A stretch of 64,000 nucleotides of DNA, taken from Fulvivirga sp. M361. GTDB taxonomy: Bacteria; Bacteroidota; Bacteroidia; Cytophagales; Cyclobacteriaceae. The notes below the pieces were generated by a model, which did no database searches, was not told the DNA's origin, and worked only from the letters and a program-made list of their open reading frames with translations. A program made the position numbers and the translations under genes. Positions within the stretch are counted from its first letter, which is position 1. Every line of letters starts with the position of its first letter. Positions 33,386 to 64,000 of the stretch are shown here, piece after piece. The stretch lies in contig NZ_VKDC01000006.1 in the NCBI RefSeq assembly GCF_007097395.1, positions 520,073-584,072 on the forward strand. Reading direction: 5' to 3'.

Positions 33386-35809
33386 ATGTTAAAACAATAC
33401 TTCCTTACAACGTTCCGAGTATTATCCAGGAACAAGCTCGTTTCCACCATTAACCTTACCGGCCTGGCTTTGGGTCTTGCAGCATCCATTTTAATTGCAA
33501 TGTATGTGAGTTTTGAACTCAGCTTTGACAAATTCCATAGTAATATTGATCAAATATACCGGGTGGAAAGTAATTTCTATGAAGGAGACGTACTCACCGA
33601 CCAATGGGCAACCAGCTCCTTTGGATATGGCAAAGCCATGAAAGACAATATACCGGGTATCAAAAATTTCGCAAGAGTAGCATTAGACCAAACCGAACAG
33701 GTTGTTGGTTATAAAGATGAATTCTTCCGGGAAAATACCATCACATACGCTGACCCCGAGTACTTTACAATGTTTGATTTTAATCTCATTGAAGGCGACA
33801 GGTCTTCTATGCTCAAATCACCTAATACCGTGGTAGTCACTAAAAGCGCAGCAGAAAAACTCTTTCATGACAGGTCTGCCATAGGGGAGGTAATATCATT
33901 TAGTACATCCCGTGCCAAAAGGGAGTGTGAAATAACTGCGGTTATCGAGGATCTGCCTGAAAATTCTCATATTAAGTTTGATTATTTCATATCTTTCAAC
34001 AGCCTGCCGGAATGGAAAAATAACTTTTGGTATTTACATGAAGTCTATACCTATGTGCTGCTTGAAAAAAATCAGTCTCCCAAAGGAATAGAGACCGCCT
34101 TCCCTGCATTGGCAGAAAAATTCAAAACACATGAAGCTTTAAAATCCAAGACCTGGGGTATTTCATTGGTTCCATTAACGGATATTCACCTTAGTCCATG
34201 GAAGCAATATGAAAGAGAAGTTAAAGGCAACAAGACGTCTCTGTATTCATTGTTGGCAGTTGCCGCTATTATTCTGATTATTGCATGGGGTAATTATATC
34301 AATATATCGATAGCAAGGTCTTATGAACGAACAAAGGAAATTGCCATCAGGAAGTTCAATGGCGCAGGTCGAAAAATGCTTTTTCAGCAATTTATCCTGG
34401 AGTCGGCAGTTGTCAATGTATTGGCGCTAATCCTGTCATTCGGGTTAGTTATAGTAGCATTGCCTTATTTTCGTTTGTTTACAGATTCACAATTGACCTT
34501 ATCTCTGCTGGACGAAAAACTATTTTGGGTGACTTGTCTATCCGTTTTCATCTTTGGCGCTTTCACGTCCGGTTTTTATCCCGCCGTGGTGCTCTCTTCT
34601 TTCAAGCCGATCAATTCGATCAAAGGTCATGTTACAAGCCATAAGCATACATTTTCACCGGCGAAAGTTTTAATGGTCATCCAGTTTGCTATGTCATTAT
34701 TCCTGATTACAGGGACAGTAATAGTATACCGGCAAATACAATTTATGCAAAACCAGTCTTTAGGCGTAAATGTGAATGAAAAGGTTGTGCTGAAATTCCC
34801 CGCTGCTACCGAAAACTTTGAGGAAAGGGTCAGGAGTTTTTCAGAAGACCTCAAAAGCAGGCACGAGGTAAAAAATGTAACATTGTCAGGTTCAGTGCCT
34901 GGCATGGAAGTAGCCAAATTTTTGTCAAATAAGCTGAGATCAGGTCGTTCTTCAGATCAAAATCGGTTGTATGAGATGTTAACAGTAGATTTTGATTATT
35001 TAAATACCTATCAAATACCCATGATTGCAGGGAGGAAATTTGATAAAAAATTTGGGAATGAATCGGATAAACTCATCGTCAATGAGTCATCATTAGAATT
35101 ACTTGAAATAGCCGATCCTGAAGAGGCCATCGGTAAAGAGGTGATGCTCGAAGGCCAACCGGAACCTTTTAAAATTATTGGTGTGACTAAGAACTGGCAT
35201 CAGAAAAGCCTGAGCAATGATTATACACCTATTATGTTTATTATGAATAGTGCTATCTCATGGATAAGGCCCGCCTATATTACAGTTGATTTTAAAGGAA
35301 ACTCTTTTAAAGAGTTGGTCTCAGGCCTGGAACAGGATTGGGGAAAGTATTTCGAAAACTCCAGCTTCGATTATTTTTATGCGGATGATTTTTTTGATCG
35401 TCAATACAAAAGTGAGGAAAGCCATGGCGCCATATTAACACTTTTTACTATACTGGCCTTGTTTGTCTCATGCCTGGGTTTGTTTGCATTGACTTCTCAT
35501 GCCGCAGACAGGAGAGTCAAAGAAATTGGAATAAGAAAGGTGCTGGGAGCCAGTATAGGTAGTATTATCATGATATTTTCTAAGGAAACAGTTTACCTGA
35601 TCGTTATAGCAATTATTATTGCCGTTCCTGTTTCACTGTTTACCATGGATAATTGGTTAAATGATTATCCATTCCGGACTAAAATTGAATGGTACATTTA
35701 TGGTCTTTCCATTGTAGTGTTAACGGTTATTTCTATGGCAACCGTTATTGGGCAAAGCTTAAAAGCTGCCAGGTCTAACCCGATAGATGCCTTGAAACAG
35801 GGAGGGTGA
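33386..35809 (+). CDS. MacB/FtsX-like ABC transporter permease
   Basis: 807 residues with the Bacteroidota tandem-FtsX layout: N-terminal segment FRVLSRNKLVSTINLTGLALGLAASI minus ends (helix 1), a large periplasmic MacB-PCD-like domain starting FDKFHSNIDQIYRVE, helices around 285-405, a second periplasmic domain, and C-terminal helices with the coupling motif DRRVKEIGIRKVLGAS and the ending KAARSNPIDALKQGG. These permeases form mechanotransmission machines with a separate ATPase; none is adjacent. Paralogous to the gene at 37168. Cargo unknown; related proteins are involved in peptide or lipid export and stress responses. Confidence 0.9.
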   Translation: MLKQYFLTTFRVLSRNKLVSTINLTGLALGLAASILIAMYVSFELSFDKFHSNIDQIYRVESNFYEGDVLTDQWATSSFGYGKAMKDNIPGIKNFARVALDQTEQVVGYKDEFFRENTITYADPEYFTMFDFNLIEGDRSSMLKSPNTVVVTKSAAEKLFHDRSAIGEVISFSTSRAKRECEITAVIEDLPENSHIKFDYFISFNSLPEWKNNFWYLHEVYTYVLLEKNQSPKGIETAFPALAEKFKTHEALKSKTWGISLVPLTDIHLSPWKQYEREVKGNKTSLYSLLAVAAIILIIAWGNYINISIARSYERTKEIAIRKFNGAGRKMLFQQFILESAVVNVLALILSFGLVIVALPYFRLFTDSQLTLSLLDEKLFWVTCLSVFIFGAFTSGFYPAVVLSSFKPINSIKGHVTSHKHTFSPAKVLMVIQFAMSLFLITGTVIVYRQIQFMQNQSLGVNVNEKVVLKFPAATENFEERVRSFSEDLKSRHEVKNVTLSGSVPGMEVAKFLSNKLRSGRSSDQNRLYEMLTVDFDYLNTYQIPMIAGRKFDKKFGNESDKLIVNESSLELLEIADPEEAIGKEVMLEGQPEPFKIIGVTKNWHQKSLSNDYTPIMFIMNSAISWIRPAYITVDFKGNSFKELVSGLEQDWGKYFENSSFDYFYADDFFDRQYKSEESHGAILTLFTILALFVSCLGLFALTSHAADRRVKEIGIRKVLGASIGSIIMIFSKETVYLIVIAIIIAVPVSLFTMDNWLNDYPFRTKIEWYIYGLSIVVLTVISMATVIGQSLKAARSNPIDALKQGG

Positions 35810-37167: not shown

Positions 37168-39555
37168 ATGTTAAGTAACTATTTAAAGATCACATTAAGA
37201 AACCTGAATAAAAACAAGGCTTATACCTTCATTAATATCGGAGGGTTTGCAATAGGTATGTCGGTAACGATCTTGATGGGTATTTGGATATTGAATGAAC
37301 TGTCTTTTAACAAGGTGCATACCCATTATGATCGGGTAGGCAGATTAATGCATCATGTCAATTTTAATGGGGAAAGAGTATCACTGATCTATATGCCTTA
37401 TCAGATCGGGGAGGAGCTCGAAAACAAATATGGTAAGGATTTCGACCGTATTGTGATGTCCACCCTGGAGTCTGAACATGTACTTACCCATACAGACGAC
37501 CGAAAATTCAAGATAGTGGGAAGTTTCATGGACGCAGATGCACCCGACTTACTTAGTCTTAAAATGATCAAGGGAAGCAAAGAAGGTTTACAGGATATTT
37601 CATCTGTCTTTCTGGCCGGATCTGTAGCTCATTCTATTTTTGGTGACACTGACCCGATGGGTAAATTTCTACAGATAAACAGTCAATTGAAAGTGCAGGT
37701 TACCGGTGTATATAAGGACTTTGATGATAATTCTGATTTTGAACGATTGAAATTCATCGCGCCCTGGCAGCTTTTTCTTAACAATGATGCTACAACAAAA
37801 AGCCATTCCAATCCCTGGCAGTACAACAATTTCCAAACCTTTATCCAGGTGTCGGAGAATTCAGACTTTGGAATAGTATCAGAGAAGATCGGAGGGTTGA
37901 TCAATGAAAAACTTTCACCCGACGAAGCTGACTTATATCAAAAACAAGTATTTATCCACCCGATGAGCAAATGGCACCTTTACTCAGAGTTTAAAAATGG
38001 TTTGAATACAGGAGGTAGGATCCAATATATAAAGTTGTTTAGTACAATTGGTTTATTCGTTCTTTTGATGGCATGCATCAATTTCATGAATTTAAGTACA
38101 GCCCGATCAGAAAAACGAGCAAAAGAAGTGGGGATACGAAAAGCCATGGGGTCAGTAAAGTTCCAATTGGTATTTCAGTTTTTCCTTGAAGCCTTTTTCA
38201 TTTCTTTTATAGCTTTTTTACTTGCTTTACCCATTGTATATTTTATTCTGCCTTTCTTTAATGAGATATCCGAGAAGAGCATGGAATTACCATGGTCTGA
38301 CCTTTATTTTTGGGTAATTGGAGTTGTATTCAGTTTAGCCACCGGGATTGTGGCAGGAAGTTATCCTGCGTTCTATTTATCATCTTTTCAACCGGCCAGT
38401 GTGCTAAAGGGGGCTTTTAAGGCAGGCAAACGAACGTCTTTACCCAGGAAAGTACTTGTAGTACTCCAATTCACCATATCATTGGTGTTGATCATAGGAA
38501 CGATTGTAGTATTCAGGCAAATACACTTTGCAAAGAGTAAACCTGTGGGGTATACCATGGATTATCTGATCACCTTTAATACCACGAATCAAATACACCA
38601 AACGTTTGACGCTTTCAGAAATGAATTGATCCGGACACAGGTGGTAGAAGAAGTAACCGAATCCGCTAATTCCACCACCGATTATTATGTCTCTGATGGT
38701 GCGATCGACTGGGAAGGCAAAGACCCTGATATGGCCTTGGAATTTCCCATCAATAATGTCACTCCCGAATACGGTAAAACCATAGGTTGGAAAATCATAG
38801 AAGGGCGAGATTTTTCGCGAGAATTTCCGTCAGATAAAATGGCATTTATTCTCAATGAGACTGCCGTTAAATTCATGGGATTGAAAGAACCCATCGGTTC
38901 AATTGTCGAATGGAGGGGCAGGCCTTTTCATGTGATAGGAGTGATTGAGGACATCGTTTTTGAATCTCCTTATCAGCCGGTCAGGCCTTCTATCTTTCAA
39001 ATGACTGGCGACAGGTCGTATCTGATCACAGCGAGGATCAATCCTGAATACGGTAATACAGAGGCGTTGGCAAGGATAAAATCGGTTTTTCAAAAGTATG
39101 ACCCTGCTGTCCCTTTCGATTTTCAGTTTGTCAACCAGGAATTCAATGAAAAATTCAAATACGAAGAACGTGTAGGAAAACTAGCTTCATTTTTTGCTGT
39201 CCTGGCTATTTTGATATCGTCACTGGGGATCTTCGGACTGGCGGCATTTATGGCAGAACAGCGGGTGAAAGAAATAGGTATCAGGAAAGTACTAGGGTCC
39301 TCCGTTTTCAATCTTTGGATGCTGCTATCAAAAGATTTTGCTTTGCTGGTTATTATGGCGCTTATCATCGCATTGCCACTGGCTTATTTTTTAATGAGCT
39401 CGTGGCTTCAAAACTATCATTACAGATCTGGCTTGCCCTTTTGGGTTTTCCTGGTTGCGGCAATAGGGGCTATGACCATTACGTTGCTGACCATCAGCTA
39501 TCATTGTACAAAGGCTGCATTACTAAACCCGATAAAGTCCTTGAGGTCTGAATAG
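37168..39555 (+). CDS. MacB/FtsX-like ABC transporter permease (second copy)
   Basis: 795 residues, same architecture as the protein at 33386: N-terminal helix in NLNKNKAYTFINIGGFAIG, MacB-PCD-like periplasmic domain, central helices with ARSEKRAKEVGIRKAMGS, and a C-terminal FtsX domain with EQRVKEIGIRKVLGSS and the end KAALLNPIKSLRSE. No ATPase gene is adjacent. It lies between the antiterminator and the biosynthetic genes, so it may be a member of the cluster (export or self-resistance) or simply an inserted neighbour. A 258-base gap follows before the next gene. Confidence 0.9.
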   Translation: MLSNYLKITLRNLNKNKAYTFINIGGFAIGMSVTILMGIWILNELSFNKVHTHYDRVGRLMHHVNFNGERVSLIYMPYQIGEELENKYGKDFDRIVMSTLESEHVLTHTDDRKFKIVGSFMDADAPDLLSLKMIKGSKEGLQDISSVFLAGSVAHSIFGDTDPMGKFLQINSQLKVQVTGVYKDFDDNSDFERLKFIAPWQLFLNNDATTKSHSNPWQYNNFQTFIQVSENSDFGIVSEKIGGLINEKLSPDEADLYQKQVFIHPMSKWHLYSEFKNGLNTGGRIQYIKLFSTIGLFVLLMACINFMNLSTARSEKRAKEVGIRKAMGSVKFQLVFQFFLEAFFISFIAFLLALPIVYFILPFFNEISEKSMELPWSDLYFWVIGVVFSLATGIVAGSYPAFYLSSFQPASVLKGAFKAGKRTSLPRKVLVVLQFTISLVLIIGTIVVFRQIHFAKSKPVGYTMDYLITFNTTNQIHQTFDAFRNELIRTQVVEEVTESANSTTDYYVSDGAIDWEGKDPDMALEFPINNVTPEYGKTIGWKIIEGRDFSREFPSDKMAFILNETAVKFMGLKEPIGSIVEWRGRPFHVIGVIEDIVFESPYQPVRPSIFQMTGDRSYLITARINPEYGNTEALARIKSVFQKYDPAVPFDFQFVNQEFNEKFKYEERVGKLASFFAVLAILISSLGIFGLAAFMAEQRVKEIGIRKVLGSSVFNLWMLLSKDFALLVIMALIIALPLAYFLMSSWLQNYHYRSGLPFWVFLVAAIGAMTITLLTISYHCTKAALLNPIKSLRSE

Positions 39556-48664: not shown

Positions 48665-51600
48665 ATGGAACCGATATCCATTAAAGGTCAAAAATTATAT
48701 CCGGCTTCTTCTCAGCAGGAGGGGGTATGGTATCATGCCTTTAAAGCCGGAACTGCCTATTGGAACTTTATTGAAATACAATTTTATGAAGGGGAATTGG
48801 ACTCACCCTTACTGATACGAGCTATTGAGCAGGTCGTGAAGCGGCATTCCGCTTTAAGAACCAACTTCATGATCAAAAATGATCAGTTACATCAGCTTGT
48901 ACATGGGCAGGTAGACATATCAGGATCTGTTATTTTCAACCGGTACGAAAAGTCAGAAGCCAGGGAGGCAGATCTAAGTGTTGAACGGATCATTCAGGAA
49001 GAAGAGAGCTATGAGTTCAACCTGGAAAAAGATAGATTGTTTCGGTTTCGTATACTCGATTTTGATCGTCGTTACTGCTTTATTCTTAATGTAAATCACA
49101 TTATTACTGATTCTGTTTCTATGCAGATCTTTTGGAAAGAAGTAATTGGGTTTTACAACACATACCACAAAAAGTATCAAAAATTCAACGTCTTACCCGT
49201 AGATCAATATAGTTCTTATGCCTGTTCGCAAGCTGAATTCAGAGACTCAAAGGCATTCGGGATACAAAAAGATTATTGGCTCCAAAAACTATCAAACCAT
49301 CCCCTTGACCTAAGGCTTTCTTTCTACCGCAATCGCTCGGAAATCTCTATACACCATGCTGAAGTAGAAGTGCCTCCGTCATTGGTGAGCGCTATCAGGA
49401 CATTATCTCTAAGAAAAAGAGTGGTGTATTCTTCCATATTTCAATTGGCTTACTTCATTCTCCTTCACAAATATACCGGACTGAATGAGATGGCCATTGC
49501 CAATAGCCTGAGTGGCCGTGGTTTCGGAAAACAGAAACACAACAACACCCTGGGACTATTCGCAAACCGCGTGATCAACACTTTGCATTTACTTCCCACA
49601 GACAGCATTTCCAACCTGGTCCAAAAGGTACATCAGGAATTAGTGTCTGATTTTCAACACGCTGATATGGCACTGGAAGAAGTGACCCGTGAAGTCAATA
49701 AACAGAAGAAACGTACCATCACTCATCCCTTATCTTTGGCTGTTTTCAACATGATCAAGTCCGGTGCTTCCCTGGATTCATTGGAAGGAATGACCGTATT
49801 ACCAAAAACCCATAAAAACAATAATGTGGGTGACATAGGTATGGATGTTGGCCTGACCATATTAGAGGGGCTGGGGGTGACCCGTATCAGGCTGGATCTG
49901 AAATGTGATACGTTCTTTCGACCGATGGTTTCACTAATATTAGATAATTACCTCATTATTTTAGAACAATGTGTATTTCATCCAGACAAAAACGTTAGCG
50001 CTATTCATGCATTAGGTGCTAAAGAAAGTAGTATCATAGACACTTTCAATGAATCAACAGGAATACCTTTTGAAGAGACTACACTTGCGCACCTTTTTGT
50101 ACAAAAGGCATTGATCAATTCTTCGAAAAAAGCCTTACTATTTAATGGGCAAACCATCACTTACCAGGAGTTACATCTACGCTCAAGCCGGTTGGCTAAT
50201 TATCTTAAAAATCAGGATGTTGGTAAAGAACGGCTTGTAGCCCTATGCATGGACCGTTCGATAGACTTGATTATAAGCATTCTCGGGATTCTAAAGGCTG
50301 GAGCAGCTTATGTGCCAATAGATCCTGATTATCCAGGCTCAAGAATCAGACATATGTTAACGGACACCGGGACAAAAATGGTCATCACCCATAGCCGTAC
50401 CTGGTCCAAAACAGGTTTAGACCTTAACATTACCACTATTTGTCTGGACAATGACTGGCCTGTCATAAATAAGGAGTCAGTAATATGTTCCGTGCGTGGC
50501 ATAACACCCTATCATCTGGCATATGTTATTTATACCTCCGGTTCAACAGGCAAACCTAAGGGAGTGATGGTCGAGCATCGAAGTGTTACAAACACCATTT
50601 TGTCGCATATTGAAGAATGGCAGGTTAAAAATACTGACCGTATGCTGCAGTTTGCATCACTTTCTTTTGATGCCTCTGTCAATGAAATATTCATCGCGCT
50701 ATGTAGTGGCATTCCATTGGTATTAATGGATAAGTCAACCATTCTAGATCGGGAAAAATTCATCGATGAGATTCATAAACAGAGCGTTACACTAGCCATA
50801 TTGACTCCTGCATACCTTAAAATGCTAACGCGTGAATCTGTTGAAAAACTGCGTGTACTTACCACAGCGGGGGAAGTGGCCAACGTGGAACAACTGGCAC
50901 GTCTGAGTGAAAGGTTGACTTGCTATAACGGCTATGGACCAACAGAATGCTCCGTTTGTGCAAGTATGCATGCCATAAGCCCACAGGATATAAACGGAAA
51001 AAGATTACCCATAGGAAAACCTATTCGAAATACATTTATCAGGATATTGGATCAGTATGATAACCAGTTACCGATCGGCGCTATCGGAGAGATCGTCATC
51101 GGAGGGAAAGGCGTTGCCAGAGGTTATTGGAAAGATCCGGCGCTCACAGTGGAGCGGTTTGTGAGAACAAAGAATGATCCGGGAGTCAAAGTCTATAAAA
51201 CAGGTGACATAGGAAGATGGCTGCCGGACGGAACCATAGATTATCTTCACCGAAAAGATGATCAGGTGAAACTTCGTGGATTCAGGATAGATCTTGGCGA
51301 AATTGAAAATGCTGTCAGAAACTCGGGATTGGTGAATGATTTCACGGCCTTGTTAAAAAATACACATCAAGAAGAAAAACATATTTTAGGATGTATTACT
51401 ATTGATAATGAGGATTTTAAATTAAATAATTTAATCTATTACTTAAATAATGAACTGCCGCGGCATCTGATGCCTTCAGCATGGGTTGTGCTAGATGTAT
51501 TCCCACTGACAACCAGTGGAAAAATAGATAAGAAAAAGCTCCTGACCCTGGAAACAAAGGTCGTCAACTCTGAAGAATATATGCCTCCCAGAAACAGGAC

Positions 51601-54600
51601 CGACCATTTTTTGGCGGCTTTGTGGAAAGAGCTTACCGGTCTTTCACAAATCAGTATTACGGATGATTTCTTTAAAATAGGGGGGCATTCACTGCTTGTA
51701 ATGAAAATGATGTCTGCTATCCGGAATACATGGCATTGTGAAGTTTCGATAGAAGAAATATTTAACCATTCATCCATCCAAACATTGTCAGATTTGATCG
51801 ATGCGAGGGAAAAGGTTTCAAAAACGGATGTGGTCAAACGTTCCACTATGGATGTACCTGTGCCCTTATCATACCAGCAGGAAGCGCTGTGGTTTTTAGA
51901 TCAATTGGGAGGAAGTGCTCATTATCATATTCCCGGTATGTATAAGGTAAATGGGCATTTGAATACAGATGCTCTTTCCAGGGCATGTAAAGCATTGATG
52001 CAGCGGCATGAGCCTTTAAGAACAGTTTGCCGGGAAAAAGAAGGGGTCTGTTATCAAGAGGTCAGAGATATGGATGACTGGTCTGTAACACTGCACTCTT
52101 GTCATGACCTTTCCGATAATGAGATACGTGAGTTCATATCCGAGCTCTGTGTGGCCCCATTCAAGTTGGAGGAAGATCCACTATTGAAAGTAAGCGTTTT
52201 ACAATGCTCTACGGAACAGTTTTTGGTCATATCAATTCATCACATTGCATTTGATGGGTGGTCCTGGAAAATATTTACGGAAGAGCTTCAGGTGCTTTAT
52301 GAGCAACAACTGTCTCCTCCAATTAGCTATGAATTGGCAGCATTACCCATTAAGTACACGGATTATGTGCTCTGGCAAAGAGAGCAGCTAAAAACAGTCT
52401 TGAAGGACAAACTGGTGTATTGGAAGAGAAAACTGGCTGGTTCACAACCCTTGAATTTGCCGACAGACCATTCACGTCCTTCCGTTCAAAGCACTCGTGG
52501 TGCCACAGTGTATTTTGATCTGGATAAGGCATTATCAGATGACATACGTCATTTTACCCACCACCACGGAGTGACGTTGTACACCACTTTTCTCGCCAGC
52601 CTTTCCGTTTTACTCTACAGGTATTCCGGACAGGAAGATTTCTGTATTGGAATGCCCGTAACAGGCAGACACCATGATCAAAACCTCGAACAACTCATTG
52701 GGTTTTTCTCGAATACCATTGTTACACGGATCGTCGTAGATGAAACACTTACCTTTTCAAAGTTCCTTCATTACATCAAAAATGAGTTAACGGAGGCTTA
52801 CGCACATCAAGATGCGCCTTTTGAGAAAGTAGTAGAGGCAGTGAGTGATCAACGGGACATAAGTCATAACCCTCTGTTTCAGGTGATGCTAAACCTGCAG
52901 CATACTGCATTATCCGATGAACTAAAACTAGGCGATGCCGCGCTGACCAAAATTGACACAGATGTCTCCACGTCCAAATTTGATCTCAATATTTCAATGA
53001 TAGATGATGGACGTTCCATTGGGATCAATATAGAGTATTGTAAAGACCTGTTTTTTGAATCTACGGTAAATCGAATGGCCAATGCCTATATCCGGTTACT
53101 GGCATCGATCACTACCCATTCTGCCGCCGTACAGACGATCGGTCGATTAAATATGATCTCCGGGAAAGAGAAAGATGTTCTTCTACATGCTGCCGCATCA
53201 GGTCCTTTTGACTACCCGAAAGATAAAACCATTGTAGACCTGATCTATCAACACGTACTCAGAACACCTGATCAAATCGCCTTGGTATGTGGAAGTGATA
53301 AGATGACGTATAAGCAGCTATGGGCCAGATCAGGTCAGGTCAGTGCTCATCTCATCCATGAGGGAACAGGTGAGCCCGACCTGGTAGCTTTATGCGTTGA
53401 CCGATCATTGGATATGTTAATTGGAATATTGGGTATCTTAAGGTCCGGAGCAGCATATGTCCCCATTGATCCTGAATATCCGATACAAAGGATCTCATTC
53501 ATCCTGGCTGATACAGGGGCCAAAATGGTGCTGGTCAATCAACATACCCAGGCATCTATCCAGGAACCTGATCGTGGTAAGCTGGTATTATTAGAGCGGA
53601 TCAAAGAAATGGAACCAGTACATGACCCTGAGATAAAGCCCTCTCAACTTGCTTATGTGTTATATACTTCCGGTTCCACTGGCGATCCCAAGGGAGTAAT
53701 GGTAGAACACAGAAATGTGGTTTTACTGCTTTTTGGCTTTCAACATGTGGCTGGTGAACCTGAGAGAGGTGTAGGGTTGTCATTGTGCCCCTATGTTTTT
53801 GATGTTTCCGTCTGGGAGTTCTTCATCAATTTGTGTTTTGGTCACACGCTACATTTACCGGAAGGGGCCGAAACAGTTGATCCGGTGGCCATTTCGGAAT
53901 ATGTACTGGACCATGGCATTACTACAGCTTATTTACCACCCACCCTGCTTCAGGACATCATTGACCATATGACTTCCCGAGAAAAACCTTCGATGCTTAC
54001 ACGCCTGCTGGTAGGAGTAATGTCCATACCACAAAAAACACTTCAGGCGTATAAAGACCTTCACCCTGAACTGCATATCATTAATGGCTACGGACCGACC
54101 GAATCTACCATATGTGCTACTTTTTATCCATTTACAGCCGCCACTGAATTGGAGAGCGCTACGCCGATCGGAAAAGCTGTGGGAAACAACCGCATTTTTT
54201 TACTGGACTCAAACGATCAGCTTGTACCTTTTGGCGCTTACGGCGAACTCTGTATCACAGGAGATGGCGTGAGTCGGGGATATTGGAATAACCCCGTCAT
54301 GACACGTCAAAAGTTTAAAGCCTGTCCTTTTGACCAAACACGTTCATTAATGTACAAAACAGGCGATCTGGCACGCTGGAAGGAGGACGGGAACCTGGAG
54401 TATATAGGGCGACTTGATGATCAATTGAAAATAGGAGGGTACAGGATCGAGCCAGGAGAAATTGAATCAAAATTACTTCAAAGTGGCTGGGTGAAGAAAG
54501 CCATTGTATTAGCAACGAGTGACACCCCAAAAAGGCTTACGGGCTATGTGGTATCTGAAGATAATGATCAGGATCAGCGAAAACTGGTTCGGTACTTAAG

Positions 54601-55015
54601 ATCATGCCTTCCCGAATACATGGTGCCGAAACAATGGGTATTTTTACAGGAAATGCCTGTCACACCGAATGGTAAAATTGATAAACGGTTACTGTCTCGT
54701 GAAAAGGTCCATAGTACAACCTATGATTACGTCCCTGCCATGAATAGGACACAAGAAAGGATGACGACCATTTGGAAGGAGCTGCTTGAAGTTGAAAAAA
54801 TAGGGATATACGATGACTTCTTTCTGCTGGGAGGTAATTCAATACTCTCTGTTCAACTGGTAACCCGGCTAAAAGATGCTTTTGAGGTGGCCATTCCTTT
54901 AAAAGTGTTATTTCAAATGGCCAACATCGCAGCATTATCAGAATATATTCAGGTGATACGTTCCCATGAAGTACGTGTGAATGACACACCGGATTATGAA
55001 GTGATCCGGTTTTGA
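48665..55015 (+). CDS. Non-ribosomal peptide synthetase, C-A-T-C-A-T
   Basis: 2116 residues, two modules. C1 about 5-440, motif NHIITDS (second His and Asp kept, Gly replaced by Ser). A1 about 455-960 with YTSGSTGKPKGVMVEH near 622 and FDASVNEIF at the specificity site. T1 with IGGHSLL (Ser1009). C2 about 1060-1500 with intact HHIAFDG. A2 about 1515-2010 with YTSGSTGDPKGVMVEH near 1667 and FDVSVWEFF at the specificity site. T2 with LGGNSIL (Ser2059). There is no epimerisation, methylation or thioesterase domain; release is probably by the separate thioesterase encoded next. Amino acid specificities were not predicted. Confidence 0.95.
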   Translation: MEPISIKGQKLYPASSQQEGVWYHAFKAGTAYWNFIEIQFYEGELDSPLLIRAIEQVVKRHSALRTNFMIKNDQLHQLVHGQVDISGSVIFNRYEKSEAREADLSVERIIQEEESYEFNLEKDRLFRFRILDFDRRYCFILNVNHIITDSVSMQIFWKEVIGFYNTYHKKYQKFNVLPVDQYSSYACSQAEFRDSKAFGIQKDYWLQKLSNHPLDLRLSFYRNRSEISIHHAEVEVPPSLVSAIRTLSLRKRVVYSSIFQLAYFILLHKYTGLNEMAIANSLSGRGFGKQKHNNTLGLFANRVINTLHLLPTDSISNLVQKVHQELVSDFQHADMALEEVTREVNKQKKRTITHPLSLAVFNMIKSGASLDSLEGMTVLPKTHKNNNVGDIGMDVGLTILEGLGVTRIRLDLKCDTFFRPMVSLILDNYLIILEQCVFHPDKNVSAIHALGAKESSIIDTFNESTGIPFEETTLAHLFVQKALINSSKKALLFNGQTITYQELHLRSSRLANYLKNQDVGKERLVALCMDRSIDLIISILGILKAGAAYVPIDPDYPGSRIRHMLTDTGTKMVITHSRTWSKTGLDLNITTICLDNDWPVINKESVICSVRGITPYHLAYVIYTSGSTGKPKGVMVEHRSVTNTILSHIEEWQVKNTDRMLQFASLSFDASVNEIFIALCSGIPLVLMDKSTILDREKFIDEIHKQSVTLAILTPAYLKMLTRESVEKLRVLTTAGEVANVEQLARLSERLTCYNGYGPTECSVCASMHAISPQDINGKRLPIGKPIRNTFIRILDQYDNQLPIGAIGEIVIGGKGVARGYWKDPALTVERFVRTKNDPGVKVYKTGDIGRWLPDGTIDYLHRKDDQVKLRGFRIDLGEIENAVRNSGLVNDFTALLKNTHQEEKHILGCITIDNEDFKLNNLIYYLNNELPRHLMPSAWVVLDVFPLTTSGKIDKKKLLTLETKVVNSEEYMPPRNRTDHFLAALWKELTGLSQISITDDFFKIGGHSLLVMKMMSAIRNTWHCEVSIEEIFNHSSIQTLSDLIDAREKVSKTDVVKRSTMDVPVPLSYQQEALWFLDQLGGSAHYHIPGMYKVNGHLNTDALSRACKALMQRHEPLRTVCREKEGVCYQEVRDMDDWSVTLHSCHDLSDNEIREFISELCVAPFKLEEDPLLKVSVLQCSTEQFLVISIHHIAFDGWSWKIFTEELQVLYEQQLSPPISYELAALPIKYTDYVLWQREQLKTVLKDKLVYWKRKLAGSQPLNLPTDHSRPSVQSTRGATVYFDLDKALSDDIRHFTHHHGVTLYTTFLASLSVLLYRYSGQEDFCIGMPVTGRHHDQNLEQLIGFFSNTIVTRIVVDETLTFSKFLHYIKNELTEAYAHQDAPFEKVVEAVSDQRDISHNPLFQVMLNLQHTALSDELKLGDAALTKIDTDVSTSKFDLNISMIDDGRSIGINIEYCKDLFFESTVNRMANAYIRLLASITTHSAAVQTIGRLNMISGKEKDVLLHAAASGPFDYPKDKTIVDLIYQHVLRTPDQIALVCGSDKMTYKQLWARSGQVSAHLIHEGTGEPDLVALCVDRSLDMLIGILGILRSGAAYVPIDPEYPIQRISFILADTGAKMVLVNQHTQASIQEPDRGKLVLLERIKEMEPVHDPEIKPSQLAYVLYTSGSTGDPKGVMVEHRNVVLLLFGFQHVAGEPERGVGLSLCPYVFDVSVWEFFINLCFGHTLHLPEGAETVDPVAISEYVLDHGITTAYLPPTLLQDIIDHMTSREKPSMLTRLLVGVMSIPQKTLQAYKDLHPELHIINGYGPTESTICATFYPFTAATELESATPIGKAVGNNRIFLLDSNDQLVPFGAYGELCITGDGVSRGYWNNPVMTRQKFKACPFDQTRSLMYKTGDLARWKEDGNLEYIGRLDDQLKIGGYRIEPGEIESKLLQSGWVKKAIVLATSDTPKRLTGYVVSEDNDQDQRKLVRYLRSCLPEYMVPKQWVFLQEMPVTPNGKIDKRLLSREKVHSTTYDYVPAMNRTQERMTTIWKELLEVEKIGIYDDFFLLGGNSILSVQLVTRLKDAFEVAIPLKVLFQMANIAALSEYIQVIRSHEVRVNDTPDYEVIRF

Positions 55016-57172: not shown

Positions 57173-58957
57173 ATGAAGTTGCTATTTCAGTACCTTAAGC
57201 CTTACACCGGGTTGATCTTCCTGGCCCTCTTTTTTGCTGTGGTGAATAATGCCTTCAATTTTCTCAACCCCTACATCCTGGGCAACAAGCTGATTGACCC
57301 GTTTGCCAGTAACGTAGCCTATTTTAAAGACAATGGACTGGAAAATGAGTTTTACAAAGGTGTTTTGACAGGTATGTTGATGATCGCCATCGTTAGTACG
57401 GTTTCCTGGATTGCCAAAGGCTATCAACATTTTTACCTGAATGTGATCGTTCAGAAGTTCGGCGCTAATCTTTACGTTGATGTGCAGCAACATACCATGT
57501 CATTGCCTTACCAGGATTTTGAAGACCACCAAAGTGGAGAGATCCTGGCTGTATTACAACGGGTGAGGGTAGACTGTGAAAAGTTCATCACCAAGTTCGT
57601 TACGGCTGGTATTGAAATACTGATAGGCATTACCATTGTAAGTATCATTGCTTTTCAACTCAGCCCTCTTCTGGTGGTTGTATACCTGTTTGGGATTGTG
57701 TTAATGTACCTGTTTACCAGGTTTGTGAGCAGCAAAATAAAAGGTATTCAGAAAACCATTGTAGACAAGACCACGGCACTGGCCGGGGCGGCCACAGAGT
57801 CCATCCGGAATATAGAATTGGTAAAAGGGCTTGGGCTTATCCAACAGGAAGTCAATCGATTTAAAGGGATTACATTCAATATCTTAGGAGAGGAGATCAA
57901 AAAGCTTAAAAGCATACGACTGATCGGCTTTGGCTATCATGCTTTTGTACATACACTGCAACAAACCATCATTTTCCTGCTCTTACTGTTCGTATTTTAC
58001 GGTAGGATGACGGTTGGTCAGCTTCTGATGATGCAACTGTACTTTTATTTTATCCTGGGTGCCATGGAAGGGTTAGGAGAGGTAATTATATCCTTTCGTG
58101 AAGCACAAGCCTCCCTTTCAAATTTAAGCCAGCTGATGGATAAGCCTGTAGAGATCCAGCCTGAAAAGCCTGAGAGAATAGACTCCATTTCGGGCCTGCG
58201 GTTTGAACACGTCAATTTCCAACACAGGTCTGCCAGACAGCTAACGCTCAAAAATATAGATTTTGAAGCATCCACCGGAGAAACGATTGCATTCGTAGGG
58301 CCTTCAGGATCAGGAAAGACCACTCTGGTAAAGCTACTGATCGGGCTTTATACACCAAGCCATGGCAAGGTCTTAATAAATGGCTATGATAGCGTGGATA
58401 TAAATACCAATGAACTTCGTTGTCAGATAGGTTTGGTTACCCAGGATACACAACTTTTTTCCGGTACGATCAAAGAAAACCTGTTATTTGTAAGCCCGGA
58501 AGCCACTGACGAAATGTTACTGGAGGCTTTGGAAAAAGCAGCCTGCAACGAATTGCTAAAGCGGGCAAAGTGTGGTTTGGACACCCGAATAGGAGAGGGA
58601 GGACTCAAATTATCAGGTGGAGAAAGGCAACGGCTTTCCATTGCCAGATCACTACTGCGAAAAACCAGTTTATTGATATTTGACGAGGCGACTTCTTCGC
58701 TTGATTCCATAACCGAAGAGGGTATAACGCATACTATTCGTCGTGTTACAGCCAGTAAAGAATTCATTACACTGCTTATCGCGCACCGGCTTTCCACCGT
58801 CATGTTTGCCGACCGTATCTATGTGCTTGAAAAAGGAGAGGTAATCGAAGCTGGTAATCACCACGAACTGATCCGTCAAAAAGGGTTATACTTTGCCATG
58901 TGGCGTCAACAGATCGGTGAGGTTAAAGAGCAGGAAATGAACTTGACGACCTCTTAA
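57173..58957 (+). CDS. ABC exporter (fused TMD-NBD half-transporter)
   Basis: 594 residues. The first ~320 residues are a six-helix exporter membrane domain (LFQYLKPYTGLIFLALFFAV; EDHQSGEILAVLQRV). The ATPase has Walker A FVGPSGSGKTTLVK near 376, Q-loop LVTQDTQLFSGT, signature LSGGERQRLSIARSLL near 479, Walker B LLIFDEATSSLD near 505 and H-loop IAHRLST. A homodimer is expected. It begins 5 bases after the aldo/keto reductase and ends 7 bases before a type II thioesterase gene, so it is part of the operon and probably exports the product. No peptidase (C39) domain. Confidence 0.95.
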   Translation: MKLLFQYLKPYTGLIFLALFFAVVNNAFNFLNPYILGNKLIDPFASNVAYFKDNGLENEFYKGVLTGMLMIAIVSTVSWIAKGYQHFYLNVIVQKFGANLYVDVQQHTMSLPYQDFEDHQSGEILAVLQRVRVDCEKFITKFVTAGIEILIGITIVSIIAFQLSPLLVVVYLFGIVLMYLFTRFVSSKIKGIQKTIVDKTTALAGAATESIRNIELVKGLGLIQQEVNRFKGITFNILGEEIKKLKSIRLIGFGYHAFVHTLQQTIIFLLLLFVFYGRMTVGQLLMMQLYFYFILGAMEGLGEVIISFREAQASLSNLSQLMDKPVEIQPEKPERIDSISGLRFEHVNFQHRSARQLTLKNIDFEASTGETIAFVGPSGSGKTTLVKLLIGLYTPSHGKVLINGYDSVDINTNELRCQIGLVTQDTQLFSGTIKENLLFVSPEATDEMLLEALEKAACNELLKRAKCGLDTRIGEGGLKLSGGERQRLSIARSLLRKTSLLIFDEATSSLDSITEEGITHTIRRVTASKEFITLLIAHRLSTVMFADRIYVLEKGEVIEAGNHHELIRQKGLYFAMWRQQIGEVKEQEMNLTTS

Positions 58958-60888: not shown

Positions 60889-61590
60889 TTAAACGAACCT
60901 CTCCCTAAACTGCAAATTAAACATACCATACAGCAGGCAAAGCAGCGTAGCTACAACGAGGTATACCCGATTTTTGAAGATAACCGTTAGCCAGATGAAT
61001 TCACTCATGCCCCGCGGTTCGCTAAAAGGATTGAGGAAAACATTGTATTGGCTGTATTCTAAAGGCTCTGCAAATACAAAAAAGAGAAATGCTACAATGA
61101 CGACAACGATAGCCGTGCCATTGCCATTCCTGATCAGCGTAGAGACCATAAAGGCCAGAGCAGAAAGAAAGGTGATGGGAAAGAGTACCTGACCGAGTAT
61201 GGGTAAGATGCTAAAGCGATAGAGGGTAAGATTAGCCACATGCCCTAACACATAAAGAATAACAAAAGCTACCCCTATGGTCAATACAAACCGGACGAGC
61301 CATACTTTATAGCGGTAATTAGGGATCCCAAAAATAGTTTCCAGCATCTTAGAGTCATCATCATTCTGAATACCATAGGCCATTGGGTAGAAAATCAACA
61401 AGAGACCGGGAAAGACCAGGAACCCATAGATCACAGCCTCATTGAAATTGGGATCTTCGAAAATAGTAATGGTAATGATGACCGCGAAGAATAGAAATGC
61501 CGCTAATACGAAGTAAACGAACTTATTCGCAAATATCACCTTTACATTGTATGTGATAAGTCTATACAGTAGCAGCAGATAACTTTTCAT
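60889..61590 (-). CDS. ABC-2-type transporter permease
   Basis: 233 residues with about six hydrophobic helices, N-terminus MKSYLLLLYRLITYNVKVIF. It lacks large soluble domains. A segment with DDDSKMLETIFGIPNYRYK, a usual amphipathic stretch between helices in ABC-2 permeases, is present. The start lies inside the 3' end of the upstream RND-ABC fusion gene (29-base overlap, different frame), so the two are translationally coupled, and the permease probably works with the ABC ATPase domain of that protein. Cargo unknown. Confidence 0.86.
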   Translation of the reverse strand: MKSYLLLLYRLITYNVKVIFANKFVYFVLAAFLFFAVIITITIFEDPNFNEAVIYGFLVFPGLLLIFYPMAYGIQNDDDSKMLETIFGIPNYRYKVWLVRFVLTIGVAFVILYVLGHVANLTLYRFSILPILGQVLFPITFLSALAFMVSTLIRNGNGTAIVVVIVAFLFFVFAEPLEYSQYNVFLNPFSEPRGMSEFIWLTVIFKNRVYLVVATLLCLLYGMFNLQFRERFV

Positions 61591-64000
61591 GTCCTTTTTT
61601 ACTTTTACTTTTCATCAGCCATAGATAAGCATCTTCCAGATTTGCTCTTACCTGTACGGCATCTTCTCTCGGTTTCGAGGCAGACAAACACTTCACTCTG
61701 ATCTCCTGGCCTTCACGCATATGATGAACAATGACATAGTCGTCTTTCACGTGTTCAAATTCATCCTGTAATACATTAAATTCCCACACCTTATCCCTGG
61801 CCAGCTCAGCCATAGAGGTGGGGCTTCCCATATATTCTATACTACCGGAGATCAATACCGCCAGGTTATTACAACTACTGGCAATGTCCTCTATGATATG
61901 TGTGGAGAATACCACGATACGTTCACGGCTCAGCTCTACCAGCAGGTTTCTGAACCTGATGCGTTCCAGGGGGTCAAGCCCTGCAGTAGGTTCATCCACC
62001 ACGAGTATTTTAGGTAAGTGAAGAAGGATCTGTGCGATACCAATACGCTGTTTCATACCGCCGGAAAACGAACCTATCTTCTTGTGCTGGTGCTCATCCA
62101 TATGGACCGCCTCTAATACATACTGCACCCGGGCTTCTCTTTTCTCTTTGTTCGTGATCTTTCTTAAAATGGCCTGGTAATCCAGGAATTGATATGGGGT
62201 CATGTTTTCGTACGTGCCAAAAGCTTGCGGCAAATAACCGATTAATCCCTGTAATTCCTCTCTATGCGATGTGGTGTCATATCCATTGATCCATATCTTG
62301 CCATAACTCTGGTCCATAATACCGCACAATATTCGCATCAACGTAGTTTTACCGGCACCGTTAGGTCCGAGTAATCCGAACATGCCCTGTTCAATCGTTA
62401 AATTCACACCTTTGAGCGCTTTGAACTGTCCCTTTTTAGGGTTTAAAAACGGAATGGCCAGCAAGAGTTTATAGTATAACCGTCTGATCTTCTTAAACCT
62501 TCCTTGTATCTGTTGTATATCAACAGGTTTTTCAGCCAATCTTCGTGCAACATGGACAAGGAATAACCCTATGAACCATAACACTATCAGGAATAAGCCT
62601 ATTCCTTTAGCGTTGACATCGGCGTAAAGGTAGGTGGCGCTGATCAATGGAAATCCCCAAAACAGGAGCGAGTAGGCAAATTGTAAAAGTTTATATCTTC
62701 TATTATTAGCCAAATGCATTACCTCATGATACATGGACAGTAGTAGAGCATGCAGTCCGGTCATAAAGAGCAACTGCCAGAATGCTTTGTCCAAAAAGAA
62801 GTAAACGAAGTAAATGAGAAAGCCAATTAACGCTCCTTGCCAGATAAGGTTTTGAAGTATTGATCGCACAGATACCGTAACCTCACCACGGGTTTCAAAC
62901 AGGTGCTTGTTACCTTTCCACTCCCTGATCCACCTTCGGTCCCGGCCGTATACTTTGGTCAGGTGCTGTATACGGATGCTCATTTTTTCATCCTGACCTA
63001 TTATTTTTGCATTGGCTTGTTTCAGCGAGGTCATAATAAAATGTGTTCCGCCCGGAATGAGAATGATAGCTGCAAGGAACCAGATCAATTGCCAAAGCAT
63101 ACCTTCGACTTCGAGATAGATAAACAGGCCGGTAGATACCATGAGTAAGATCTGTATGATCTTAATGACTGGTTTTAATTTTCTGAACCAATCCAGCACA
63201 CTTTCCAGTCCTGCACTCATGGTCGGGATATAGACCAGGGTGAGTATGGTGGCAAATGCCAGTCCACCCATTACGGTCACGGCAAAAGGCTGCCCGATGC
63301 TGGTAACATATTCTGCTTCTCCCAGTGCCAAAGGGAGCATGGCCACCATCGTAGTAATAGAGGTGATCAGTATGGGTCTGATCCTGGAGATACCACTCAT
63401 GATCAACGCACGGTATTTGTCATAGCCTCTTCTTCTGAGTATACGGGAATAGTCGATAAGGATAATACCATTGTTCACCACCACTCCGAGTAAGATCAGG
63501 AAGCCAATCAACGTATTGGCATTCATAAGTGAGTTACCGGTAAACGTAAGCCCGAGGAATGCACCGATGCCGGCCAGGGGAATAGAGAACATGATAACAA
63601 TGGGAAGATAGAGCGATTCGAATACAGCTGCGAGAATCATAAAGATGATCACCACAGCAGCAAAGATCAGGAAGTAGAATTCGTCAAACAGGCCTTCGTC
63701 ATGAATGACATCCACCAGGACGCCCGAGGGTATATTCACACTGCTTACCAGTTGATCGATCTCTACTCTTGAAGCTTCCAGCAAGGATTCGGAATTGATT
63801 ACTTCTTCTATAAAATGGTAGGTAATTTCTATCCGCTTTTCCTGGTTTAACCGGGTAATAGCGCTTTCACCAGTCGAATAGATTACAGCGCCGATGTCTG
63901 AAAGTTCATGTATGGCGCCGGTGCTACTGGTAATTGTCATGGCCCTCAGGTCTTTCATGCCTTTGGCTACCAGGTCTTCCTGGTTTTGTGTTCTTATGGT
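61562..64000 (-). CDS. RND efflux pump fused to ABC ATPase, 5'-partial
   Basis: The frame stays open to the window edge at 64000, so the N-terminal half lies outside. Counting from ATG 63958: residues 1-90 are the end of an RND porter domain; about 95-255 are RND helices 8-12 (LAAVFESLYLPIVIMFSIPLAG, GVVVNNGIILIDYSRILRRRG minus ends, RPILITSITTMVAMLPLALG); then two more helices (about 260-310). From 326 an ABC ATPase begins (MSIRIQHLTKVYG), is interrupted by about 160 residues with several helices and HEVMH (411-415), and resumes at about 505 with ALKGVNLTIEQ, Walker A GLLGPNGAGKTT (about 525), signature FSGGMKQRIGIAQ, Walker B LVVDEPTAGLD and H-loop FSTHIIEDIA. All in one continuous frame. 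Confidence 0.85.
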   Translation of the reverse strand, partial: TIRTQNQEDLVAKGMKDLRAMTITSSTGAIHELSDIGAVIYSTGESAITRLNQEKRIEITYHFIEEVINSESLLEASRVEIDQLVSSVNIPSGVLVDVIHDEGLFDEFYFLIFAAVVIIFMILAAVFESLYLPIVIMFSIPLAGIGAFLGLTFTGNSLMNANTLIGFLILLGVVVNNGIILIDYSRILRRRGYDKYRALIMSGISRIRPILITSITTMVAMLPLALGEAEYVTSIGQPFAVTVMGGLAFATILTLVYIPTMSAGLESVLDWFRKLKPVIKIIQILLMVSTGLFIYLEVEGMLWQLIWFLAAIILIPGGTHFIMTSLKQANAKIIGQDEKMSIRIQHLTKVYGRDRRWIREWKGNKHLFETRGEVTVSVRSILQNLIWQGALIGFLIYFVYFFLDKAFWQLLFMTGLHALLLSMYHEVMHLANNRRYKLLQFAYSLLFWGFPLISATYLYADVNAKGIGLFLIVLWFIGLFLVHVARRLAEKPVDIQQIQGRFKKIRRLYYKLLLAIPFLNPKKGQFKALKGVNLTIEQGMFGLLGPNGAGKTTLMRILCGIMDQSYGKIWINGYDTTSHREELQGLIGYLPQAFGTYENMTPYQFLDYQAILRKITNKEKREARVQYVLEAVHMDEHQHKKIGSFSGGMKQRIGIAQILLHLPKILVVDEPTAGLDPLERIRFRNLLVELSRERIVVFSTHIIEDIASSCNNLAVLISGSIEYMGSPTSMAELARDKVWEFNVLQDEFEHVKDDYVIVHHMREGQEIRVKCLSASKPREDAVQVRANLEDAYLWLMKSKSKKGHEKLSAATV

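Follow-up and report, generated by a model that had tools for sequence, protein, structure and literature searches.

An RND permease and a complete ABC ATPase joined in one polypeptide within a seven-gene operon

RND pumps and ABC exporters are classed apart, each with its own source of energy, the RND pumps normally drawing on the proton gradient. In AcrB, passages of PMC8277102 report that replacing one of the proton-relay residues abolishes substrate extrusion; some RND pumps, according to passages of PMC4338810, pick up their substrate in the periplasm and carry it across the outer membrane only. Two different RND permeases can also share one pump, and excerpts of PMC7015380 give the MdtB2C1 hetero-trimer, which sets a precedent for a 2:1 ratio. 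Here we describe a gene in which an RND permease and a complete ABC ATPase are joined in one polypeptide. Our search of the open-access literature, preprints excluded, found no report of an RND-ABC fusion, which is not proof of its being unreported. The join is shared across several bacterial families and is a real, little-explored pump design. Being conserved and covalent, and accompanied by a TolC-like channel and an adaptor, it offers a natural test of linked two-membrane transport, and also of whether an RND cycle can run on ATP.

The joined gene and its distribution

In the window, by which we mean the whole 64,000-nucleotide stretch of DNA analysed (G000:C105:520073-584072), an open frame on the minus strand at 61562-64000 runs without a stop and continues upstream beyond the window edge. 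By open frame and Pfam, this part encodes the C-terminal 812 residues (768-1579) and the stop codon of the fusion. The full-length gene, which the earlier note had proposed looking for upstream of position 64000, was found at G000:C105:581634-586373, minus strand, and encodes 1579 amino acids. Compared with Pfam as a single protein, the product matches ACR_tran at residues 8-1028 (E 4.7e-151), over the full length of that domain (profile positions 3-1016 of 1021), as is required of an HAE-1 RND permease, and ABC_tran at residues 1296-1440 (E 1.3e-28). The open frame and the Pfam matches together confirm the original observation of an RND membrane half running in frame into a complete ABC ATPase. 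The best NCBIfam models were RND_permease_2 for the front of the protein and GldA and DrrA for the back, with none of the 25 models listed, of 182 matched, reaching its curated cut-off.

We consider it extremely improbable that the fusion is an assembly or frameshift artefact, or that an internal start gives rise to two proteins. Many other assemblies likewise carry the gene in one frame, which rules out an assembly join or a frameshift, a concern that the earlier note had itself raised. An in-frame ATG does occur at residue 1107 of the window copy, as an internal start would need, but Met1107 is replaced in 10 of 12 homologues (L010, L011, L012, L087-L092 and L097).

The suggestion that other genomes be searched for the same fusion proved fruitful, since one-chain homologues span five families and two classes. 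Specifically, nine of 58 relatives, own genome included, carry one (that of G003 being cut at a contig end); 14 of 17 loci have the one-chain frame, 74-84% identical and one of them cut, and the other three are distant ATPase-only matches of 25-32%. The family sample gave 36 of 295 genomes, own included, with 31 of the 36 copies spanning 1565-1600 aa and the remaining five being shorter (649-1514 aa); one of these five, in G681, is cut by the contig end. One-chain homologues were found in three of 241 genomes of the order, among them G206 (f19), which lies outside the family, and in six of 395 genomes of the phylum, including f27 and f31 of the same class and f36 of another class; own genome is counted in both samples. 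The class of G386 yielded one of 197 genomes, namely G386 itself. Since the samples overlap and few candidates per genome were scored, these counts are to be read as floors for partly shared sets of genomes. The spread is patchy, since in the genus of the window the fusion was found in 5 genomes out of 15.

Architecture of the fused ATPase

All features described here lie on the minus strand. By Pfam and alignment, the end of the RND permease (residues 768-1028) occupies 63218-64000; its TM10 motif reads GVVVNNGIIL, in which N943 (63473-63475) takes the position of AcrB K940. Beyond the RND part, hydropathy averaged over 13 aligned copies revealed six additional hydrophobic segments, with centres at about residues 1051-1064, 1067-1085, 1156-1172, 1176-1189, 1214-1221 (weak) and 1228-1247. 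The first two, predicted to be membrane helices, lie between the RND part and the ATPase (63047-63151). They are followed by the first strand and A-loop of the ATPase, MSIRIQHLTKVYG (residues 1107-1119; 62945-62983), which aligns with the start of the free ATPase encoded in the same operon, and then, within the ATPase itself, by a 171-residue insert (residues 1123-1293; 62423-62935), delimited by hydropathy and alignment, with about four hydrophobic segments that are likewise predicted membrane helices and also appear as helices in a low-confidence model. Compared with the free ATPase of the operon, the fused one thus shares the first strand and A-loop (MSIRIQHLTKVYG aligned with MNIEIKGLSKIYP), then has the 171 additional residues, and then the same core and C-terminal domain. 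The ATPase does sit in the RND chain, as first described, but it is not a simple C-terminal append, being interrupted after its A-loop. Because the insert separates the two, the A-loop does not closely precede Walker A in the fused copies, the distance from its tyrosine to Walker A being 188-229 residues, as against 22 in the free ATPase. To our knowledge, it is unusual for an ABC ATPase to tolerate a hydrophobic module at this place.

The numbers of lysine plus arginine residues alternate across the successive loops (1.9, 0.3, 12.8, 0.1, 3.9, 0.6 and 11.2, with loop limits set by eye), as would be expected if the first strand and the core of the ATPase were both cytoplasmic. As to the identity of the insert, the sequence HEVMH raised the possibility of a zinc or site-2 protease, which we rejected, HExxH being present there in only 5 of 21 aligned rows (L004, L009, L016, L023 and L025). 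A decayed copy of the small permease of the operon, or of the membrane part of the large one, was also considered, and the comparisons gave no support. Searches of the insert against Pfam gave no consistent family, only scattered weak matches of single members, the best being ABC_membrane at 6.6e-4 in 1 of 13.

Beyond the insert, the motifs of the ATPase follow in order: Walker A, GPNGAGKTT (residues 1312-1320; 62342-62368); the Q-loop glutamine (1359; 62225-62227); the ABC signature, SFSGGMKQR (1411-1419; 62045-62071); Walker B with the catalytic glutamate, ILVVDEPT (1432-1439; 61985-62008); and the H-loop histidine (1468; 61898-61900). A C-terminal domain past the ATPase core (1500-1579; 61565-61804) aligns with its counterpart in the free ATPase. 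We examined 33 distinct fused copies, taken from 58 loci picked by sequence patterns, and found the Q-loop, signature and H-loop kept in every one. A strict Walker B pattern was matched by 30 of the 33, and the other three read ILIVDEPT, so that the glutamate is present in all; the same score for Walker A proves nothing, because this motif belonged to the selection pattern. Of the motifs listed in the earlier note, Walker A is present in the window copy, and the signature, Walker B and H-loop were borne out in 33 of 33 distinct copies. In 12 homologues, identity to the window copy was 68-92% in the ATPase core, 45-77% in the RND part and 20-61% in the insert, making the core the most conserved part of the fusion. 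A full and highly conserved catalytic set argues against the ATPase being a regulator of the pump, acting in assembly or substrate sensing and not as a motor, and we regard such a role as very unlikely. AlphaFold models had mean pLDDT values of 46.9 and 54.9, too low for a fold search.

The operon and the proposed transport route

The fusion gene is the sixth of seven genes, all on one strand. From upstream to downstream, as read in L004, these encode an ABC ATPase (296 aa), a permease (1108 aa), a TolC-like protein (515 aa), an adaptor (353 aa), an RND permease (1048 aa), the fusion (1579 aa) and a small permease (233 aa); the RND and fusion genes overlap by 8 bp and the fusion and small permease genes by 29 bp. 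The same order was seen at the 11 loci with enough flank (L015-L022, L024, L025 and L027), the first gene being cut by the locus end in all except L016. A further 13 stretches were inspected, 11 of which reach far enough upstream (L098 and L099 are too short), and 10 of these have all seven genes (L087-L094, L096 and L097, with L096 apparently coming from the same genome as L024); the contig of L095 stops part-way through the second gene. The second RND gene, the TolC-like protein, the adaptor and the second ABC pair had escaped the earlier note, as had the interruption of the ATPase by its insert and the changes in the proton relay described below.

Outside the operon we found no widely shared neighbour; among the 15 largest groups listed, the most widespread neighbour occurs at no more than four loci once frames antisense to operon genes are set aside. 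The other matches in the order are ATPases, in which the match starts after the insert, a few exceptions reaching slightly into it. We considered whether these free ATPases could represent the same system lacking its RND; five other operon proteins were found at none of 28 such loci, although the fetched flanks are short, so that this says little. The window gene at 48665-55015 encodes an NRPS with condensation, AMP-binding (adenylation) and PP-binding (carrier) domains. The fusion gene does lie on the strand opposite to it, as had been pointed out, but a link between the fusion and the NRPS operon was rejected: the NRPS genes do not recur beside the fusion operon in the flanks of 25 other loci, compared over at most about 10 kb and over much less in several. 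The comparison took in 24 window frames of at least 300 aa, and only three had homologues in those flanks, namely 33386-35809 and 37168-39555, both MacB/FtsX-like (L014, L016 and L018), and 57173-58957, by its ATPase domain alone. The two MacB/FtsX-like frames are related and both lie near the NRPS gene; the first has MacB_PCD and FtsX domains by Pfam, the second being assigned by likeness; their homologues probably adjoin the operon in three loci because such permeases are common.

The descent of the fusion was examined in two trees. In a quick, unrooted RND tree of 34 rows (fused RNDs thinned from 31 to 11, partner RNDs thinned from 21 to 11, E. coli AcrB, MdtB and MdtC, and nine RNDs of the genome), the fused RNDs and the partner RNDs each formed one side of a branch (100), as did the two groups together (98). 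In an ATPase tree of 50 selected rows, the 12 fused, 12 operon-free and 26 other sequences each formed one side of a branch (99, 99 and 100), with a long-branch warning on how these groups join. As a single branch sets the fused rows apart in each tree, the fusion appears to have arisen once.

The 233-aa membrane protein encoded at 60889-61590 (minus strand) comes directly after the fusion wherever the downstream flank was read. It is likely an ABC-2 type permease, based on its frame and on weak family matches: ABC2_membrane_3 was matched by 4 of 14 members (best E 3.4e-4) and ABC2_membrane_4 by two (best 0.32), with no ABC2_membrane or solved-structure match for the window protein itself. Of the coupled ABC-2 permease first proposed at this position, the downstream permease is thus confirmed, and its ABC-2 identity is likely, resting on these weak matches.

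We tentatively favour the view that the operon encodes a two-stage exporter, in which an ABC step would take the substrate over the inner membrane and a tethered RND-TolC step would take it over the outer one. The fused ATPase would drive the small permease, which would carry the substrate out of the cytoplasm or inner leaflet and deliver it at the outer face of the inner membrane; an RND hetero-trimer bolted to the ATPase would then take it up and pass it on via the adaptor and TolC. Held by the covalent link and the six extra helices, the ABC unit would stay beside the RND unit, allowing direct hand-over. A trimer of two fused and one plain RND, as in MdtB2C1, would bring together two ATPase domains, the number required by an ABC transporter, this stoichiometry being a guess. 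We prefer such a relay because the small permease so regularly follows the fusion and because some RND pumps act only across the outer membrane. In addition, the operon has two adjacent RND genes and one adaptor, as expected of an MdtBC-type hetero-trimer.

Against the two-stage reading, the second ATPase and permease of the operon could be the true partners. An alternative is that the fused and free ATPases pair, as would the small permease and the large, ABC-2/M1-like one, giving one hetero-dimeric ABC exporter on a trimer of one fused and two plain RNDs. Both ATPases and both permeases do belong to the same conserved operon, and the two permeases align co-linearly over 208 columns, weakly (E 0.013 but a probability of just 3%). 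However, the two ATPases lie on separate branches of the tree, and the free ATPase of the window genome, its motifs judged by eye, looks complete as well, which makes such pairing quite doubtful.

The residues of the proton relay bear on how the RND stage may be driven. At AcrB positions 407, 408, 940, 971 and 978, the fused RNDs read D, N, N, R and T in 31 of 31 rows (27 distinct), so that the AcrB triad of D407, D408 and K940 is replaced by D, N and N. The partner RNDs (n = 21, row R_L030 being left out as not an RND) have D at 407, N (16) or I (5) at 408, N at 940, R at 971 and T at 978. Those with isoleucine at the D408 position belong to L017, L018, L019, L020 and L024, and in them the relay is even more altered. 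With D408 and K940 lost in both RNDs, the RND stage may lack a proton drive like that of AcrB; with D407, R971 and T978 kept in both, ions may still drive it to some extent. Nor are these changes peculiar to the fusion, because L104, an RND of the same genome without an ATPase, likewise reads D-N and N, and in L106-L108 the K940 position is N. For the same reason (L104) the D-N/N pattern does not alone show a lost proton drive; as other RNDs of the genome vary at these positions, loss of the triad lowers the case for an AcrB-like proton drive more than that for RND membership.

These substitutions, together with the loss of extrusion reported in passages of PMC8277102 for AcrB altered at such residues and the stronger conservation of the ATPase than of the RND part, could instead mean that the fused ATPase, by hydrolysing ATP, powers or gates the conformational changes of the RND trimer itself, replacing the proton gradient wholly or partly. 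We consider this somewhat unlikely, given the retention of D407, R971 and T978, the occurrence of similar changes in RNDs without an ATPase and the constant presence of the small permease after the fusion. A bolder form, in which the rotating trimer would be ATP-powered through two covalent ABC domains per hetero-trimer, each braced in the membrane by the helical module inside the ATPase fold, is unlikely. If true, an ATP-powered RND trimer would be a new energy coupling for RND pumps. Of the coupling of two energy sources suggested in the earlier note, the presence of an RND permease and an ATPase in one chain stands, and the coupling itself is a possibility.

Comparison with described systems

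Fusions of other kinds involving RND or ABC-2 permeases also occur. In the genome studied here, L101 (G000:C91:57198-60299) is a CusA-like RND in a frame of 1483 aa, with Pfam matches to ACR_tran at 5-1038 and to OEP from 1081, making it a fusion of RND and channel, and L102 (C82:24689-27808) is, by eye, a CusA-like RND in frame with an outer-membrane channel part (1471 aa). An ABC-2 permease fused to an M1 peptidase is in print (TC 3.A.1.145), and the 1108-aa permease of the operon (L004:14140-17466) has a layout of the kind that passages of PMC3924187 describe. Unlike that system, its Pfam match to Peptidase_M1 is below the cut-off, 22 of 22 rows lack HExxH and the protein ends in a Golvesin_C domain; it is apparently a transporter retaining a dead peptidase domain.

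Over residues 8-1028 the fusion resembles AcrB and MexB of the HAE-1 type, matching ACR_tran, but it differs from them in its C-terminal extension of about 550 residues and in the asparagines at the D408 and K940 positions. Its ATPase core resembles the ABC-2/ABCA-group ATPases (DrrA, GldA and ABCA3), with the motif set present and matches to TIGR01188, TIGR03522 and ABCA3, whereas the insert between A-loop and Walker A and the RND pump in front set it apart. MacAB-TolC is likewise an ABC-driven tripartite export system working via TolC; there, according to PMC5985334, the ABC protein itself works with the adaptor and TolC, whereas here the RND permeases would do so, one of them carrying the ATPase. 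In RND composition the operon resembles MdtABC/MuxABC, which also combine two different RND permeases with an adaptor, and MdtB is the best solved-structure sequence match to both RNDs of the operon. MdtB and MdtC, however, are of ordinary RND length, keep D407, D408 and K940, and join each other in the quick tree apart from both RNDs described here, which does not fit a common descent of the two pairs.
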